In this document: in pieces, positions 5,310 through 59,069 of the stretch
Position numbering within the stretch: the first letter of the stretch is position 1
How the letters are laid out: the number at the start of each line of letters is the position of its first letter
Origin: Azotosporobacter soli
GTDB taxonomy: Bacteria > Bacillota > Negativicutes > SG130
Length of the DNA: 64,000 bases
Assembly (NCBI RefSeq): GCF_030542965.1
Contig: NZ_JAUAOA010000001.1
Coordinates: forward strand, 186,001-250,000
Reading direction: 5' to 3'
Program-made: the position numbers and the translations under genes
The notes under the pieces: model-generated
The model's input: only the letters and a program-made list of their open reading frames with translations
Database searches by the model: none
Told to the model about the DNA's origin: nothing

Positions 5310-5422
5310 CTCACTTTACACTTCGTTCGTTGTCATAATGATATCGCCGCCCATTCCTTGCAACAATAATAAAATCGCCATATACTATAATAAAAACGCC
5401 ATCTTCGACAAGGAGCCGTGCG

Positions 5423-6331
5423 ATGCTTATCCAAACATGTACGCTGACGTTAGCTTCCGACCGCCGCGAGTTGAAAGTGCGCGGCACGCCCATGTTCCCC
5501 TGCGGCGCTTATCTTTCGCAGATCGGTCATCATACGCCGGATCTACCCTGGCATTGGCATGAAGAACTCGAAGTACTCGTCGTATGCAGCGGTATTTTAC
5601 GCATAAGTTTGCCCGGCATGACGTTCACCTTAGAGCAAGGCGACGGCGCTTTCATCAACTCCAACATATTGCATTCCGCGCAGCTTGCCGCTGCTTCCGA
5701 CGCCGACTGCACTCTGGCCTCGCTGGTCTTTCATCCGAACCTGATCACAGGTGCGGCGGAAAGCATTTTTGAACAGCGCTATATCCGTCCTTTGCTCGAC
5801 TGCCGCCTTTTGCCCGGCGTTCCCTTCTACAGCAAAACCGAGTGGCACGCCGAAGCCGTGCAATGCATTCGCGCCGCCTACGAAGCCTACGCCGCAGAAA
5901 GTTTCGGCTATGAATTTCTTGTCCGCGAAAACCTGTCCCGCCTTTCCTATCTGCTTGTCACAACGCTGCAATCCGTTTTACTGCAACAACGCAGTGAAAA
6001 TCCCGACACGCTGCGCATCAAAAGCATGCTGGATTTTTTGCACCAGCACTATGCCGAGCCGCTGGAACTATCGCAAATTGCCGCGGCAGCCAGCATCAGC
6101 AGCCGCGAATGTCTGCGTTGTTTTAAAAAGAACATCGGCCTTGCGCCGATACAGTATCTGCTCAAACATCGAGTGTCGTTGGCCGCACGCCTTTTAACAG
6201 ACACCGCCGCGCCGATCACCGAAATTTGCAGTCGAACCGGTTTTGACAGTCCCAGTTATTTCGCCAAAACTTTCAAGCGCTTTTTGGACATCACGCCGAC
6301 AGCGTATCGAAAGCAGCAACAAAAAAACTAA
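5423..6331 (+). CDS. AraC-family transcriptional regulator
   Basis: A 302-residue regulator. The N-terminal part (to about residue 150) is an AraC-type cupin ligand pocket, with the HWHEELEVLVV pattern typical of these sensors. The C-terminal 100 residues hold two helix-turn-helix units (LSQIAAAASISSRECLRCFKK, then ITEICSRTGFDSPSYFAKTFKR). ATG at 5423 follows AAGGAGCC. It is divergent from the small gene at 5309 and has no operon partner, so its target is not evident; the convergent NRPS/MFS operon ends beyond the shared hairpin. Confidence 0.92.
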   Translation: MLIQTCTLTLASDRRELKVRGTPMFPCGAYLSQIGHHTPDLPWHWHEELEVLVVCSGILRISLPGMTFTLEQGDGAFINSNILHSAQLAAASDADCTLASLVFHPNLITGAAESIFEQRYIRPLLDCRLLPGVPFYSKTEWHAEAVQCIRAAYEAYAAESFGYEFLVRENLSRLSYLLVTTLQSVLLQQRSENPDTLRIKSMLDFLHQHYAEPLELSQIAAAASISSRECLRCFKKNIGLAPIQYLLKHRVSLAARLLTDTAAPITEICSRTGFDSPSYFAKTFKRFLDITPTAYRKQQQKN

Positions 6332-50709: not shown

Positions 50710-51816
50710 CTATCCTCGTTCAATCGATTCAACGACTTGAAGCAATTTTTCGATATCACTAGGAATCCTCAAACGCACCGCATTTTTCCCTACACCGATA
50801 AAATCCTTGCCGGCTTCTGTAATTACGTTGTTTTTCAGAAAGAGGCGTTGAAGATCGACGCTTTCATCCGGATGCTCCAAGACCAGAATCGGAACAGAGC
50901 TGTGCGTATGCCACGCCTTGATTTTCTTGCAACCGTTCTGAAGTCTGGTTTTCGCTCTTCGAATTTTATTTACGGAATCCTCGATAAAGGCAGTATCGTC
51001 TAGCGCGCTTTGCAGGATTCGGCAGCCAAGGTCGGAAACAGCGAATGGCGTGTCGACTTTTTTGTAATACGGCATCAGCGTTTTGCTGCAGACCAAATAG
51101 CCGAGACGCATTCCGGCAAGACCAAAGCCTTTGGAAAAAGATCGCACGACGAACAAATTTTCGAAGGCATCCACTAACCGAACCGCCGAATTGCTTTTGT
51201 CCATAAAATCGCCATACGCCTCATCGACAATGACGCAGCAGCCCATGCCTTCGGCTTTTTCAACAATCGCCCGTATTTCGGACAACGGCAGAATCTGACC
51301 GGTGGGATTGTTCGGGTTGTCTATATAAATTAGTTGCGTCCTCTGCTTCATACGCGCCATGAACGCATCCGCATCAAATCTGAAATTGCGTTCCCGGCGC
51401 AACCGAACGTAAGCGTACTCTCCGCCAAGGCATTGGACTTCTGAGATATACTCCGTAAATTGCGGCGCATACCCTAACACAGCGGTCTTCTCTGCAACCA
51501 GCATCTTGTTTATGGTACTGAGGATGCCCATCGATCCACAGCCAAGGCGAATGGCTTCCATACTAATATCGGCCTCCGCTTTCCAGAACGCGGCGATATG
51601 TCGCCGCGCCTCGGCGTACGGATATTGCGGGTACTGGTTCAGCTCTTGCGAAAAAATCTCCCGCACCCAAGCCACTTTATCGGAATATCCGTATGGGTTT
51701 GTGCCATAGGCGCAATCCAGCATGCCTTGCGCTGTACCGACCGTTTCTTCCTCAGAAACGTAACTGGCACGTTGATAATTCATCAAATGGGACTTCACAG
51801 CATATTTTGCGTTCAT
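50710..51816 (-). CDS. Histidinol-phosphate-aminotransferase-like PLP enzyme
   Basis: A 368-residue class I/II aminotransferase of the HisC/CobD type. YGTNPYGYS begins the substrate region, LIYIDNPNNPTGQIL and VIVDEAYGDFMD bind PLP, RSFSKGFGLAGMRLGYLV carries the Schiff-base Lys, and VRLRIPSDIEKLLQVV is the C-terminal Arg region. ATG at 51816 follows GGAGGAATTTG. It has a sigma-54 promoter at 51852-51867, unlike housekeeping hisC genes, and the PAS-type sigma-54 activator lies directly upstream. A conditional catabolic or biosynthetic role is likely; the substrate is unknown. Confidence 0.9.
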   Translation of the reverse strand: MNAKYAVKSHLMNYQRASYVSEEETVGTAQGMLDCAYGTNPYGYSDKVAWVREIFSQELNQYPQYPYAEARRHIAAFWKAEADISMEAIRLGCGSMGILSTINKMLVAEKTAVLGYAPQFTEYISEVQCLGGEYAYVRLRRERNFRFDADAFMARMKQRTQLIYIDNPNNPTGQILPLSEIRAIVEKAEGMGCCVIVDEAYGDFMDKSNSAVRLVDAFENLFVVRSFSKGFGLAGMRLGYLVCSKTLMPYYKKVDTPFAVSDLGCRILQSALDDTAFIEDSVNKIRRAKTRLQNGCKKIKAWHTHSSVPILVLEHPDESVDLQRLFLKNNVITEAGKDFIGVGKNAVRLRIPSDIEKLLQVVESIERG

Positions 51817-51851
51817 CAAATTCCTCCAATCGAATAACTGCTTATCCCTTT

Positions 51852-51867
51852 AGCAAAAAGCGCGCCA
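51852..51867 (-). promoter_or_regulatory. Sigma-54 (-24/-12) promoter of the aminotransferase gene
   Basis: The minus strand reads TGGCGCG-CTTT-TTGCT, with exactly 10 bp between the GG of the -24 element and the GC of the -12 element. The predicted start, near 51841, is about 25 bp before the ATG. Confidence 0.8.
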
Positions 51868-51925
51868 AAGCGTTGCAACCGCCATTAAGCGGCGAATTTA
51901 AAGGGCTGCACAAAGCTACTTGCAG

Positions 51926-51979
51926 AAAACAGAAGAACGGTTTGTGTAAATATATTTACACAAACCGTTCTTCTGTTTT
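51926..51979. promoter_or_regulatory. 54-bp perfect palindrome, probable enhancer site
   Basis: Two perfect 27-base arms meet with no spacer (left 51926-51952, right 51953-51979; centre TGTGTAAATATATTTACACA). It lies 85-140 bp upstream of the predicted sigma-54 transcription start, the usual place for an activator site. A second imperfect dyad, TGTGTAAAACGGTTTACATG, is at 52047-52066, and TTTACACA recurs near 52075. It could also work as a terminator for the activator gene, but the arms are AT-rich. Confidence 0.7.
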
Positions 51980-52107
51980 TAATTTCCGCCCTACTCCTTC
52001 GCTGCAAGCTCTTACCGCGCAAGAACTCAGCAGCATCGGCACTCATGTGTAAAACGGTTTACATGTAACTCTTTTTACACAGGCTCCGCTAGCAAGCATC
52101 GGCATAA

Positions 52108-53424
52108 TTATTTTCGTTTCAGAAGTTTGTAAAGCGTCGGCCGCGAAATCCCTAACGCCTCAGCGGTCTTCTTCTTATTCCCGCCTAGGCGTTGCAGCAC
52201 GTCCTGCACTTGACTGGCATCCAATTGCACTGGAGCACAAAGCCGCTTGCATGGTTGCTGCAAACCGGCCAGCTTCAGAACCGCTTCCGTAATATATTCT
52301 CCTTCACAAATGACCAAAGCGCGTGTGATAACATTTTCTAATTCCCTCACATTGCCGGGCCAAGTATGTTCGACTAGCAACCGCTTTGCCGTTTCATCAA
52401 GGCCCATGACATCGCTGTGAATCTTTTGCCTCAGTTTTTTTACAAAATGATCGGCCAAAAGAATAATATCGCTCTCACGTTCCCGCAGCGGCGGGATATC
52501 CAGATAGAGTACCTTCAAGCGATAATAAAGATCCTTTCTGAAATGCCCTTCGCGAATCCGCTCTTCCAGATCTCTGTTCGTAGCGGCAATAATTTTCACA
52601 TCGACATGAACCGGTTTGGAACTTCCAATTCGGCTGATGCTAAGAGTTTCAATCACCCGCAGCAATTTTGCCTGCAGGTGGATAGGCATTTCTCCGATTT
52701 CATCCAGAAACAGAGTGCCGCCGTCAGCCGCTTCGAACTTGCCCATTTTCCCTTTTTTTGAAGCGCCGGTAAAAGCGCCTTCTTCATAGCCGAACAACTC
52801 GCTGTCGATCAGATCGTTTGGGAAATTCGCGCAGTTTAGTGCAATGAACGGCGCTCCCGCTCGTTTGCTGTGATTGTGGATGGACTGCGCAAACAGCTCT
52901 TTCCCCGTACCGCTCTCGCCTACAATCAACACGTTTTCGTTATTTCTGGAATATGCTTTAGCCAGCTTAACGACGCTCTTGATTTTCGCGCTGTTTCCGA
53001 TAATCTGGTCAAACGTAAAAAGAGCCGAATAACCCGCAATCGTATCGGCTAATTTTAAAGAGCGTTGCATGCCGCGAAAGATATCGATGGCTCCAATGAT
53101 TTCTCCGCTCTCGTCCGTGACCGGATAACCCGAATTGATCAAATGGACGGTCTTCCCCTTAAAATCGAGAAAATACTCGATATCAATAATCGGTTTCTTT
53201 TTTTCGAGAATCTTAACCAGCAACGGCGTGCCCTTCGTCAATCGATCCACCTTTTGGTGGAGCACGTCCTCTCGCTTAGCGCCCATAATCGTATAGGCCG
53301 CCCGGTTTGCGTAGCGGATGTATCCCTCCTTATCGATCATCGTGATCCCTTCCTGCACGGAATCCAATGCCTGAAACAGCATGTCGCTGTCGTCACTCTT
53401 TCTCAAAAGCCGCTCTTTACTCAT
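52108..53424 (-). CDS. PAS-containing sigma-54-dependent activator
   Basis: A 438-residue activator. An N-terminal PAS domain (residues about 12-125; [21 protein letters not shown]) senses a small molecule or redox state. The AAA+ domain follows with [12 protein letters not shown], the intact sigma-54 contact loop GAFTGA, and [12 protein letters not shown]. The C-terminal Fis-type helix-turn-helix ([19 protein letters not shown]) binds DNA. The ATG follows GAAAGGGAAAAACGG. The gene ends about 240 bp upstream of the aminotransferase's sigma-54 promoter, with the TTTACACA dyads between them, so it very likely drives that promoter. Confidence 0.95.
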
Positions 53425-54756: not shown

Positions 54757-56073
54757 CTATGCGTCGCTGCTAAACGAATCCAAGAATTTCAGATACTCTG
54801 CCTTTGTCAGCAGCGGTTTGTCGGCAGCAATAATGTCCTGCGCGGTTTCACCTTCGCCATACAGCAAATCAATCACCGTCAGCGCCATCGCCTGCGCCGT
54901 CTTGATATAACCCGCCTCCACATCGGCCACGCAATAATCCGCGCTGTGCAGCGCGCCATGCACACAACCAATCCACGGATGAATCGTCGGCATGATGTGC
55001 GAAAGATCGCCAGTATCGGTGCTGCCGGCTTCGTGCGGTCCCACGTTCACCTGTTCTGCTCCATACAGTAGCGCGGCGTTTTCACGAAACACTGCATTTA
55101 ACGCCGAATTATTGCATAGCGGCAGATAGCCCGGCAAATCTTGAATTTTCACTTCGGCTCCGACCGCATCGGCACCCGCCTGCAGCGCACGGTTTATTTT
55201 CGTATTACTTGTCAGCAGAGCCGACACATTGGCCGCTCGGACATAACTTTCCATCCGCACATCATCGGGAACCACATTGACCAAATCGCCGCCCTGCGTA
55301 ATAATCGGATGAAACCGGACATAGTCCTGTTCACGAAAAGTTTCCCGTTGCGCATGAACGCCCATGATGCCAAGCATCGCCGCATTCAGCGCATTGATCC
55401 CTTCCTCCGGCGCCATCGCCGCATGCGCGGCCCGGCCTTGATAATGGACTAATTTTCCGATAAATCCATTGCTGGTGCTGCCGAGTCTGACAAAACTGTC
55501 TCCCTCCGGCTTAGTAGCCAAATGGATCTGCAGCGCCATATCAATATCGTCAAAAGCCCCAAGACGAATCAATTCCGCTTTGCCGCCCAAATATTTGATC
55601 GACCCAGCCTTGCGCAGTTTATCACGATAGGTGATTTCAACATATTCCTCCGCCGGCACCGCAAAGAACACCACATCGCCAGCCAACTGCTCCATCGCAC
55701 CGCTGTCGATCAGTCCCATCGCCACAGCCGCCATCGCCGCAATCTGCGCATCATGGCCGCAGCAATGGGCCGCGCCGGTCAACGGATCGGCATCCGGATG
55801 CCCCGCGCAAATCACTGCATCCATTTCGCCGAGCACCGCAACCGTCTGCTTCGACTGCCTCCCCTTCAAGCGTCCCTTTACGCCAGTGACCGCTAAGCCC
55901 GTTTCATGCGCAATCCCAAGACTGCGAAACAACGCCGCTACCTTAGCGGCTGTTTTTGTCTCTTTAAAGCCAAGCTCCGGTTCCTGATAAATTGCGTTCC
56001 GTAATTGCATGATATCACTGCGTCTGTCTGCAATCGCTTGACAGACCTTGCTTTTCAATTCTTCTTTTGTCAT
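54757..56073 (-). CDS. M20D-family amidohydrolase (AbgB/IAA-amino-acid-hydrolase type)
   Basis: A 438-residue metallopeptidase-like hydrolase. QEPELGFKETKTAA, LGEMDAV, the Cys-Gly-His metal motif in HCCGHDAQIAAM, VPAEEYVE, and HATRAH-like RAAHAAMAPEEGINAL are the family's conserved points, with the late His in HPWIGCVHGALHS. Members split N-acyl amino acids or p-aminobenzoyl-glutamate-like amides. The ATG follows GGGGAGGTAAAA. It is the last gene in an operon with two membrane proteins that probably import its substrate, as AbgT does for AbgAB. Confidence 0.92.
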   Translation of the reverse strand: MTKEELKSKVCQAIADRRSDIMQLRNAIYQEPELGFKETKTAAKVAALFRSLGIAHETGLAVTGVKGRLKGRQSKQTVAVLGEMDAVICAGHPDADPLTGAAHCCGHDAQIAAMAAVAMGLIDSGAMEQLAGDVVFFAVPAEEYVEITYRDKLRKAGSIKYLGGKAELIRLGAFDDIDMALQIHLATKPEGDSFVRLGSTSNGFIGKLVHYQGRAAHAAMAPEEGINALNAAMLGIMGVHAQRETFREQDYVRFHPIITQGGDLVNVVPDDVRMESYVRAANVSALLTSNTKINRALQAGADAVGAEVKIQDLPGYLPLCNNSALNAVFRENAALLYGAEQVNVGPHEAGSTDTGDLSHIMPTIHPWIGCVHGALHSADYCVADVEAGYIKTAQAMALTVIDLLYGEGETAQDIIAADKPLLTKAEYLKFLDSFSSDA

Positions 56074-56107: not shown

Positions 56108-56566
56108 TTACTTGATTACTCCTTCCCAACGCAGCGTAAATTGTGCAATCAGCGTGGCAAAGAGGAACGTCCCCGCACACACCGCCAGCGCGACCGGAAC
56201 GATGCGCCATGACAATTTTTTAAACAATTCCATATCCTTGCCCAACGACAAACCGGCATACGCCAGAATCGGCGTTGCAATCGCCAAGAACTGTACCTTC
56301 TTCGTCACATCGATGATCCAGGCACTGCCGGGAAAAACCGGCAATGAAGCAATAACCGCGACAATTGAGACCCAAAACACCATCGGCAATCTTTTCAAAA
56401 CCGGCAACTGACTTAGGATCGCGCCGATAAGCCCCAGTCCAATAATGACAGCAACGCCAACTAGCGAACTGGCCCAGTCGATCTTATAGCCGATCCAATT
56501 GGCCAGCGCTACAAAGAGTCCCGTCAGCAAAAATGTTCCCGCCAAATCCATCAACTTGTTCATCAT
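56108..56566 (-). CDS. Small membrane partner of the DUF3100 protein
   Basis: A 152-residue integral membrane protein with four or five hydrophobic segments (FLLTGLFVALANWIGYKI, LVGVAVIIGLGLIGAIL, VFWVSIVAVIASLPVF, IVPVALAVCAGTFLFATL). Its start overlaps the DUF3100 stop by four bases (ATGA), with GGAGGTAGC before it, so the two are translated together and probably form one transporter. The LSLGKDMELF segment also suggests a relation to the DUF3100 partner. I know no more specific family. Confidence 0.85.
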   Translation of the reverse strand: MMNKLMDLAGTFLLTGLFVALANWIGYKIDWASSLVGVAVIIGLGLIGAILSQLPVLKRLPMVFWVSIVAVIASLPVFPGSAWIIDVTKKVQFLAIATPILAYAGLSLGKDMELFKKLSWRIVPVALAVCAGTFLFATLIAQFTLRWEGVIK

Positions 56567-57357
56567 GCTACCTCCCGACCAGCAGCTTTGCGCCCCGCCA
56601 GTTTATTCAGCAAAACATATAGCCGATTGGCAATCGGCAACGACAGGAACAGGCTTACATAGATGCCCAATATCGTCGACATCAAATTAGCAGCACCGGC
56701 ATACGCTCTGATTTGCTGCTCCTGTTCAGGATATATCGCAATAATAGAGCCCACCGAAGCGGCCATCATGCTGCCGCTGCCGATTCCCGCCCCCATGGCC
56801 AACGCATAGGGATGAAACAAATCAAGCTTTGCAACCGCGCCAGCCAAAACCGCCATCCAAACCGCGCCGAACAGCGTACCGCACACATACATCGCCATAA
56901 CGCCGCGCCCTTCCGGCGAATCAAGTCCATATTTTTCCGCAATAATGGCAATGTTCGGTTCCCGAGCAATTGAATAGGTCGCTCCGACCGCTTCGCGCCC
57001 CATGTTCAGCAAGACGGCAATCGGCAAGCCCAGCAATACCGTTCCTAAGAAATGGCCTATTTCCTGGAGCAGCAACGCACCTTTGGAATGCAGCAGCATC
57101 GAAATATTCGGCCCGATATCAAGACCGATCTTCACCAACAGCAACATCATCGCCATCGGCAAAATAGCCGCCGCCCTCTCCATTTGCGACCGCGTCAACA
57201 GATTAAGCCGCGGATAACTCACCACGCCGCCCAAAACCATCGCATGCAATAGCGGCAACAAAATCAGTAGACCATACTTGATCATGCCAATTTTTTCCGC
57301 AGCAACAACAATTAACAATACAAATAGATGTAGTTTTATTTTACGAAAAAAATCCAT
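56563..57357 (-). CDS. DUF3100 membrane protein
   Basis: A 264-residue, roughly seven-helix membrane protein of the DUF3100 type. MGAGIGSGSMMAASVGSIIAIYPEQ and LLLVKIGLDIGPNISMLLHSKG are conserved-looking loops. The ATG follows AGGAGGAAAAAGG. With the overlapping small membrane protein and the M20D amidohydrolase it makes a compact operon. DUF3100 proteins have no proven function that I know of; uptake of the amidohydrolase substrate is the natural inference. Confidence 0.88.
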   Translation of the reverse strand: MDFFRKIKLHLFVLLIVVAAEKIGMIKYGLLILLPLLHAMVLGGVVSYPRLNLLTRSQMERAAAILPMAMMLLLVKIGLDIGPNISMLLHSKGALLLQEIGHFLGTVLLGLPIAVLLNMGREAVGATYSIAREPNIAIIAEKYGLDSPEGRGVMAMYVCGTLFGAVWMAVLAGAVAKLDLFHPYALAMGAGIGSGSMMAASVGSIIAIYPEQEQQIRAYAGAANLMSTILGIYVSLFLSLPIANRLYVLLNKLAGRKAAGREVA

Positions 57358-57550: not shown

Positions 57551-57596
57551 AAAAAGCAGTTGCTGTAAAAGTTTCCTTTCACAGCAACTGCTTTAA
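57551..57596 (-). terminator. Terminator overlapping the end of the regulator gene
   Basis: AAAGCAGTTGCTGT (57553-57566) pairs exactly with ACAGCAACTGCTTT (57581-57594), with TTTTT following on the minus strand. The upstream arm reaches the regulator's stop codon. Confidence 0.88.
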
Positions 57597-58903
57597 CCTG
57601 GGAGTCGATAGATTTTGCTGGGTCTTCCGCGCGAAGGCGCAGCTTCCTCACCTTCAACTTCGATCAGGCCCACATTCTGCAGACCTGATACGATACGCCT
57701 GACATTGCGCTCCGTCACCGACAACTGCGCTGCCAATTGGGAGACCGTAAAACGTAACCAGCCAAGCCGACGGATTGTACTTTCGATTTTACGATACGTC
57801 TTGATGCCAACTTCAGCTTGATGGAGTTTGGCTAGCAACGCTTCATCATTGCTCTGATAATCATAGCGAACGCTCTGTTCTTCCATAGCTTCGACAATAA
57901 CGCCGTCATCCTGAACAATGATAATTTGCCTCGCCTCGCTGCCCCGTGCATTATGCAAACCACGATTGGCGTTGATTTCCGCGGCAAAAACGGTTCCGGC
58001 AAACCCGATTCCCGCTGCAATGGGAACATCAAACGCCAGAACCTCGGCCATTTCATCAATTACCGCACGCAGCATCGCAAGCTCCTGCTCCACTGCGCCG
58101 CGCGAACTGAAGATTTCATAGACGCCCAGCCCTTTTTCCAATAGATAGCCGTCGACTTTCTGGCAAAAGGGCAATAGTACCTGCTTCAACTTTAGTTCGG
58201 CATACTGCAAGGCATACGGCGTTTTCGATTTTGCAGCAACTTCGTCATAACGTCCGATTTCTAACAAGATCGAGGCCACTTGCGTATTTTTAAAATAAGA
58301 AGAGCGCACCTTTTCAACAATCATTTGTAACGACTGCTGAATTTCCTGTTTTGTTAGCGTAAGATGATAGACCGGTACGCCTTGGCGCTGCAAATGATAA
58401 AACACGCTTCGCAGCGGCGTAACGACGCCGTCAATTTTTCCCGCTTCCCATAACTGAAGATGAAAACGATTTACTTCTTCAGCATCATAATGTTGCGCAT
58501 ATTTCTTGATATAGACTTCATCCCAGCCCAGCCCGCTTTCTTCCAGCATATTTTCAATATCCATCGCGCCTTCAAACACATCCACCGAAAATCGCCGCAA
58601 TATCCCACCATGCCGATGGGCAACCTGGAGACAAGCCATATAGAATCCTGCGCCCAGCGACTTGCAATAATCTACCGCATCATCCGCCGCCAAGTGATCC
58701 TTGGCAATCAAATACGTCACAGGCCCGGAAAAAAGCCAGCCACGCACCAGTCCTTTGTTTTTCTGCAAAATAGAGGCGATTTCACATTCATCTTCATACG
58801 GAAAAGGCACAAATTCAATGCCCGCGACATCCACCACTTGAGCAACCGACAATATTCGTTCAATCGACGGTCCTGGCCCGATTATGCCAATTCTATGCGT
58901 CAT
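57593..58903 (-). CDS. Regulator with cyclase-like fold and C-terminal winged helix
   Basis: A 436-residue protein. The N-terminal 120 residues begin IGIIGPGPSIERILSVAQ and look like a ligand-sensing alpha/beta domain. About residues 215-345 (ELKLKQVLLPFCQKVDGYL to GIGFAGTVFAAEINANRGL and QIIIVQDDGVIV) resemble the nucleotide-cyclase/GGDEF/GTP-cyclohydrolase-III fold without a GGDEF active site. The last 60 residues form a winged helix (FTVSQLAAQLSVTERNVRRIVSGLQNVGLIEV). ATG at 58903 follows GAGGGTGACT. It is upstream of the DUF3100/M20D operon on the same strand, with a terminator between them, and probably controls it. Confidence 0.85.
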   Translation of the reverse strand: MTHRIGIIGPGPSIERILSVAQVVDVAGIEFVPFPYEDECEIASILQKNKGLVRGWLFSGPVTYLIAKDHLAADDAVDYCKSLGAGFYMACLQVAHRHGGILRRFSVDVFEGAMDIENMLEESGLGWDEVYIKKYAQHYDAEEVNRFHLQLWEAGKIDGVVTPLRSVFYHLQRQGVPVYHLTLTKQEIQQSLQMIVEKVRSSYFKNTQVASILLEIGRYDEVAAKSKTPYALQYAELKLKQVLLPFCQKVDGYLLEKGLGVYEIFSSRGAVEQELAMLRAVIDEMAEVLAFDVPIAAGIGFAGTVFAAEINANRGLHNARGSEARQIIIVQDDGVIVEAMEEQSVRYDYQSNDEALLAKLHQAEVGIKTYRKIESTIRRLGWLRFTVSQLAAQLSVTERNVRRIVSGLQNVGLIEVEGEEAAPSRGRPSKIYRLPG

Positions 58904-59069
58904 AGTCACCCTCATTCCCGCTCATTACTCACCGTCCGCTCTCACATTGCCGACAGTTTTAGTTATTCCAGAAAAAAAGACAACCTCCTGCCATTAGACA
59001 GAAGATTGCCGCCATCCGCTGTACTTTTCATTTTGCTAAAGTCTTGCTTTCTATCATTTAACTCTTTCC

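Follow-up and report, generated by a model that had tools for sequence, protein, structure and literature searches.

The 288-bp gap between a bEBP gene and an aminotransferase gene in the 64-kb stretch of DNA analyzed here (the window) is likely to hold the control elements of a local sigma-54 unit. In this unit, the bEBP would bind three sites, and a 54-bp palindrome would serve mainly as a terminator-type hairpin whose apex is one of these sites, UAS1. Read along the minus strand in the order of transcription, the locus consists of the bEBP gene (53424-52108), the gap, and the aminotransferase gene (from its ATG at 51816 to 50710). The original prediction had described a self-contained unit for one aminotransferase; the sequence supports local, probably self-contained sigma-54/bEBP control of this single gene.

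The bEBP gene (52108-53424, minus strand) encodes a 438-aa protein with PAS, AAA+ (Sigma54_activat, AAA_lid), and Fis-type HTH regions (Pfam PF00158, 4.8e-71; PAS_4, 3.2e-10; HTH_8, 1.6e-08). Both the ESELFG and the GAFTGA motifs are present in the translation, and it is the Sigma54_activat domain with its GAFTGA loop, together with the Fis-type HTH, that places the protein among the bEBPs. It is the probable cognate activator of the unit. The best NCBIfam model was PrdR (NF041552), at 382.5 bits against an equivalog cut-off of 795. This score, the lack of an N-terminal CBS domain (Pfam gave no CBS match in the protein, which starts at its PAS domain), and an aminotransferase rather than a prd gene as neighbor ruled out PrdR itself.

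The downstream gene (50710-51816, minus strand) encodes a HisC-like, fold-type I PLP aminotransferase (Aminotran_1_2, 2.4e-50). Pfam thus bore out both gene calls made earlier from the sequence, a PAS-GAFTGA activator upstream and a HisC-like gene downstream. The start was placed at the ATG at 51816, which has GGAGG six bases ahead of it; the open reading frame list gives an in-frame TTG at 51819. The protein is closest to the HisC and CobD models and falls under the cut-off of both. Its score with the hisC model TIGR01141 (205 bits; equivalog cut-off, 276.55) ruled out histidinol-phosphate transaminase, and another gene, on contig C9, scores as a true HisC (327.5 bits, over the same cut-off). 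Because the genome has this separate HisC, the window aminotransferase is probably a paralogue of other function. As to its role and substrate, we infer that it perhaps acts in amino acid catabolism, in line with the targets of many EBPs that control small regulons. The following minus-strand gene carries its own promoter-like sequence (TTGACA-18-TACGAT, 50677-50648), so the unit may cover the aminotransferase gene only. Searches of the 64-kb window against Rfam gave no match.

Elsewhere in the window, genes for a DUF3100 membrane protein and a small membrane protein (56108-57357, minus strand) adjoin an M20 amidohydrolase gene (54757-56073), and the three possibly form an uptake and hydrolysis cassette. 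The gene at 57593-58915 (minus strand) encodes a 440-aa protein without a Pfam match; its C terminus weakly matches the anti-phage family model NF053860, far under the cut-off, and, judging by its sequence, it may be a regulator carrying a winged helix at the C terminus.

The candidate sigma-54 promoter (TGGCGCGCTTTTTGCT, 51867-51852 on the minus strand) reads TGGCGCG-CTTT-TTGCT, with the GG of the −24 element and the GC of the −12 element 10 bp apart, and conforms to the TGGCRCG-N4-TTGCW-like consensus. The earlier call of TGGCGCG-N4-TTGCT with correct spacing was therefore accurate, on the minus strand. Counting from the −12 GC, transcription is predicted to start near 51841. The strict pattern TGGCNCGN4TTGCW matched the genome 10 times, compared to 2 matches for a reversed control pattern. 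The nine other matches lie on contigs C1, C2, C3, C6, C9, C13, and C15 (L056 and L058 to L065), and no bEBP gene was found within about 1.5 kb of any of them. The genome encodes rpoN (PF04552, 4.1e-57; contig C2) and about 20 strong bEBP genes. Under this layout, expression of the aminotransferase would depend on RpoN, and the unit would be inducible.

Upstream of this promoter, a single operator occurs three times: at the center of the palindrome, in a second dyad, and in a third copy that abuts the second. The operator has the form TGTAAM-N4-TTTACA (TGT-N10-ACA, the NifA/PrdR type), and the three sites are versions of TGTGTAAA-N4-TTTACACA. UAS1 (TGTGTAAATATATTTACACA, 51943-51962; core, 51945-51960) is the palindrome center, has no mismatches, and lies at about −111 from the predicted start. 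UAS2 (TGTGTAAAACGGTTTACATG, 52046-52065; core TGTAAAACGGTTTACA, 52048-52063) matches TGTAAAN4TTTACA without mismatch at about −214. The weakest copy, UAS3 (CATGTAACTCTTTTTACACA, 52062-52081; core TGTAACTCTTTTTACA, 52064-52079), lies at about −230 and has three mismatches to TGTGTAAA-N4-TTTACACA, one mismatch in its 16-bp core, and five of eight symmetric pairs; its core adjoins that of UAS2 with zero gap. The second dyad had been predicted at 52047-52066, and it is real although the coordinate was one base off. The third copy, and the operator that the second dyad shares with the palindrome center, had both been missed.

Within the 64 kb, only these three sites match TGTGTAAA-N4-TTTACACA at three or fewer mismatches (0.2 expected by chance). 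A genome search for the dyad, which the original prediction had proposed as a check, found the exact 16-bp core TGTAAA-N4-TTTACA twice in 3.78 Mb, as UAS1 and UAS2, both in the 288-bp gap; the remaining one-mismatch core matches are scattered, with their symmetry broken. The generic form, TGT-N10-ACA with seven or more of its eight pairs symmetric, was found at two places in the window, both in this gap, and was absent from 300 kb sampled elsewhere in the genome. A larger regulon was ruled out, the other matches with one to three mismatches being asymmetric and no commoner than those of a control. From core to core, the sites are 16 and 103 bp apart; the nearest site lies about 75 bp upstream of the sigma-54 promoter and the close pair about 180 to 215 bp upstream.

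This arrangement can be set beside the UAS motifs that Nie et al. reconstructed in 2019 for the EBPs of Clostridiales (PMC6615313). In 15 EBP groups, PrdR included, these motifs are inverted repeats of TGT and ACA, 10 to 12 bp apart; UASs usually come in several copies, most of them 100 to 250 bp ahead of the promoter and near the gene for the EBP (PMC6615313). The three sites of the window follow this pattern in dyad, interval, copy number, and position, and the bEBP of the adjacent gene probably binds them. Spacing and terminal triplets also match the NifA-type UAS in all three sites, whereas our sites differ in their AAM-N4-TTT core and in the gene linked to them, and nif context is absent. 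In CdsR-cdsB and MdeR-mdeA/metT of Clostridiales (PMC6615313), as in the window, a local EBP whose regulon is very small serves one amino acid enzyme or operon through UASs and a sigma-54 promoter; these systems differ from ours in organism class and enzyme family, and no ortholog of the window pair was found.

The closest likeness is to the PrdR/prd loci of Clostridia, in which PrdR is the sigma-54 activator of D-proline reductase. Three PrdR-type loci, recovered via sequence similarity, have their sites at 5404, 5424, and 5516 (Caloramator, L011), at 5380, 5400, and 5491 (Caloramator, L013), and at 5370, 5389, and 5491 (Lutispora, L014). As in the window, the bEBP gene is directly upstream of the target, and behind it come three TGT-N10-ACA sites, a close pair (centers 19 to 20 bp apart in these loci) and a third about 91 to 102 bp on. 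Past the sites lie a TTGGCAN-type sigma-54 promoter and then the target gene, which reads as PrdC-like. The window differs in a bEBP without CBS domains and below the PrdR cut-off (382 versus 795), in its aminotransferase target, and in having one site inside a hairpin. In Lutispora, a separate hairpin with 21-nt arms (5578-5627) lies between the UASs and the promoter, which it may insulate from bEBP transcription; the locus thus has a set of parts equal to that of the window without the overlap of site and hairpin. In the Caloramator loci, such a hairpin is absent from the stretch between sites and promoter. The enhancer reading is supported because exact copies are confined to the gap and because PrdR-type loci have a matching layout.

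An orthologous bEBP-aminotransferase unit was not found in 380 genomes of the class and 398 genomes sampled from the phylum. No bEBP is encoded in the fetched flanks of aminotransferase relatives (37 to 45% identity), and relatives of the bEBP (40 to 46% identity) have no such aminotransferase adjoining. Only the site layout is shared, with the PrdR-type loci. A palindrome with 18- to 19-nt arms is common to two genomes from one other family of the class (L021, 1491-1530; L022, 1490-1531), where it separates a gene for a CBS-domain protein from a cation-efflux gene. Its 20-bp center fits TGTGTAAA-N4-TTTACACA as UAS1 does, its outer arms are unrelated to those in the window, and no bEBP is present in the fetched 3 kb.

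The palindrome of the window (51926-51979) lies between the bEBP gene and the sigma-54 promoter. As predicted, it has two 27-nt arms, 100% complementary and with zero spacer. It has an A4 edge and ends in T4 on the minus strand and in T5AATTT on the plus strand, and a terminator scan found a short T-tract on both strands, the minus-strand U-tract being only four long. The RNA of the surrounding minus-strand region (51905-51999) folds at −41.9 kcal/mol (z, −8.0). The element has the form of an intrinsic terminator, in which a stable hairpin and then a U-tract come after a gene, with the qualification that the U-tract is four (minus strand) and that the bEBP stop codon is 129 nt away, farther than any other sampled hairpin is from a gene end. 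An origin as a repeat element was ruled out, the arm sequence ACAGAAGAACGGTTTG being found exactly only in this palindrome genome-wide.

A palindrome this long had been called unusual, a view that the genome itself contradicts. A 300-kb random sample contained 15 perfect hairpins whose arms reach 14 nt or more; in 7 of these the arms measure 20 nt or longer and in 2 they measure 25 nt or longer, and one zero-spacer palindrome has 24-nt arms; a control of shuffled sequence gave no such hairpins in 60 kb. Another fetched locus contains a hairpin with 29-nt arms. On a simple open reading frame map, almost every hairpin in the sample falls no more than a few tens of bases from the 3′ end of a gene, and many are flanked by convergent genes. 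Examples of long perfect gene-end hairpins (20- to 29-bp stems) are L118 10603-10650, L118 14343-14404, L120 389-445, and L047 837-897. This sample ruled out length as a mark of special function. The palindrome shares with the gene-end hairpins a long perfect stem, A- or T-rich edges, a short apical loop, and a comparable folding energy (−35.4 kcal/mol, within the ordinary range of −18.9 to −43.4 kcal/mol). It differs from them in its distance from the upstream stop codon and in an AT-rich apex identical to a UAS. This apex, an exact UAS core, is what falls outside the routine; none of the other hairpins checked has a TGT-N10-ACA center repeated nearby. The palindrome is therefore best read as a routine terminator-type hairpin behind the bEBP gene, with its apical 20 bp doubling as the enhancer site UAS1.

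The original prediction had taken the palindrome for a probable enhancer. Its center stands as one of three probable activator sites, and only these inner 16 to 20 bp match the other sites. That the entire 54 bp forms an extended high-affinity enhancer operator with no terminator role is unlikely, even though the center is the best UAS copy and the element lies 129 nt beyond the bEBP stop rather than directly behind it. The outer arms (AAAACAGAAGAACGGT...) match neither UAS2 nor UAS3 beyond an 8-nt common word, do not recur exactly in the genome, and are shaped like its routine gene-end hairpins; moreover, Lutispora keeps UASs and hairpin separate. We find it very doubtful, too, that the palindrome is a terminator only, with a UAS-like center by coincidence and the pair at 52046-52081 as the whole enhancer. 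That pair could suffice as UAS, long perfect gene-end hairpins are routine in this genome, and the unrelated palindromes of L021 and L022 have a matching 20-bp center with no bEBP in the fetched loci. Coincidence would, however, have to explain why the center is one of two exact TGTAAAN4TTTACA copies in 3.78 Mb, the other being 103 bp away, why three other loci have a third site about 91 to 102 bp past a close pair, and why such a center, repeated nearby, is peculiar to this hairpin among those checked. Enhancer and terminator, set out earlier as alternatives, probably each apply to a different part of the element.

The dyads might instead serve a different regulator, of the Rex, TyrR-like, or CRP/FNR type, as operators and not the adjacent bEBP, which we consider very improbable. 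Rex-type operators are AA-N4-TT dyads and the TyrR box is TGTAAA-N6-TTTACA, and the sites resemble the former in their dyads and the latter in their TGTAAA/TTTACA halves. However, the spacer is N4 and not N6 in all three sites, which ruled out a TyrR box. Many sites would be expected for a global regulator, and confinement of the motif to this one gap ruled out a Rex operator. Their position upstream of a sigma-54 promoter and beside a bEBP gene fits the published UAS rules (PMC6615313).

Sequence analysis supplies the elements of the local sigma-54 unit that we favor: a match to the promoter consensus, a dyad in three copies that is confined to the locus, the identities of the two genes, the class of the hairpin, and the same arrangement at distant PrdR-type loci. 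Along the minus strand, the order is bEBP gene, UAS3/UAS2 pair, hairpin with UAS1, −24/−12 promoter, and aminotransferase gene. Dimers of the PAS-AAA+-Fis bEBP would occupy the three TGT-N10-ACA sites. On sensing a signal through its PAS domain, the bEBP would oligomerize, loop to the sigma-54 holoenzyme at 51867-51852, and use ATP to open the promoter of the adjacent gene, with transcription starting near 51841. The palindrome hairpin would end the bEBP transcript and shield the promoter from read-through, while its apical 20 bp would also act as UAS1. It is conceivable, if quite unlikely, that the bEBP on UAS1 changes termination at this hairpin or keeps its own transcript from reading through, so that activation would be coupled to insulation or autoregulation. 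Literature searches found no precedent for a sigma-54 promoter at which an enhancer site and an intrinsic terminator overlap.

A candidate operator (TGTGTAAA-N4-TTTACACA), a promoter, and a single target can now be assigned to an undescribed bEBP, whose lineage has no close relative among the genomes compared. The close pair with a third site about 100 bp on is an arrangement that recurs across distant bEBP loci. The locus is an on-switch of known type, and its curious part is the single terminator-enhancer overlap. If this overlap is functional, one short element would be both an enhancer and a transcription stop; otherwise, the locus is ordinary.
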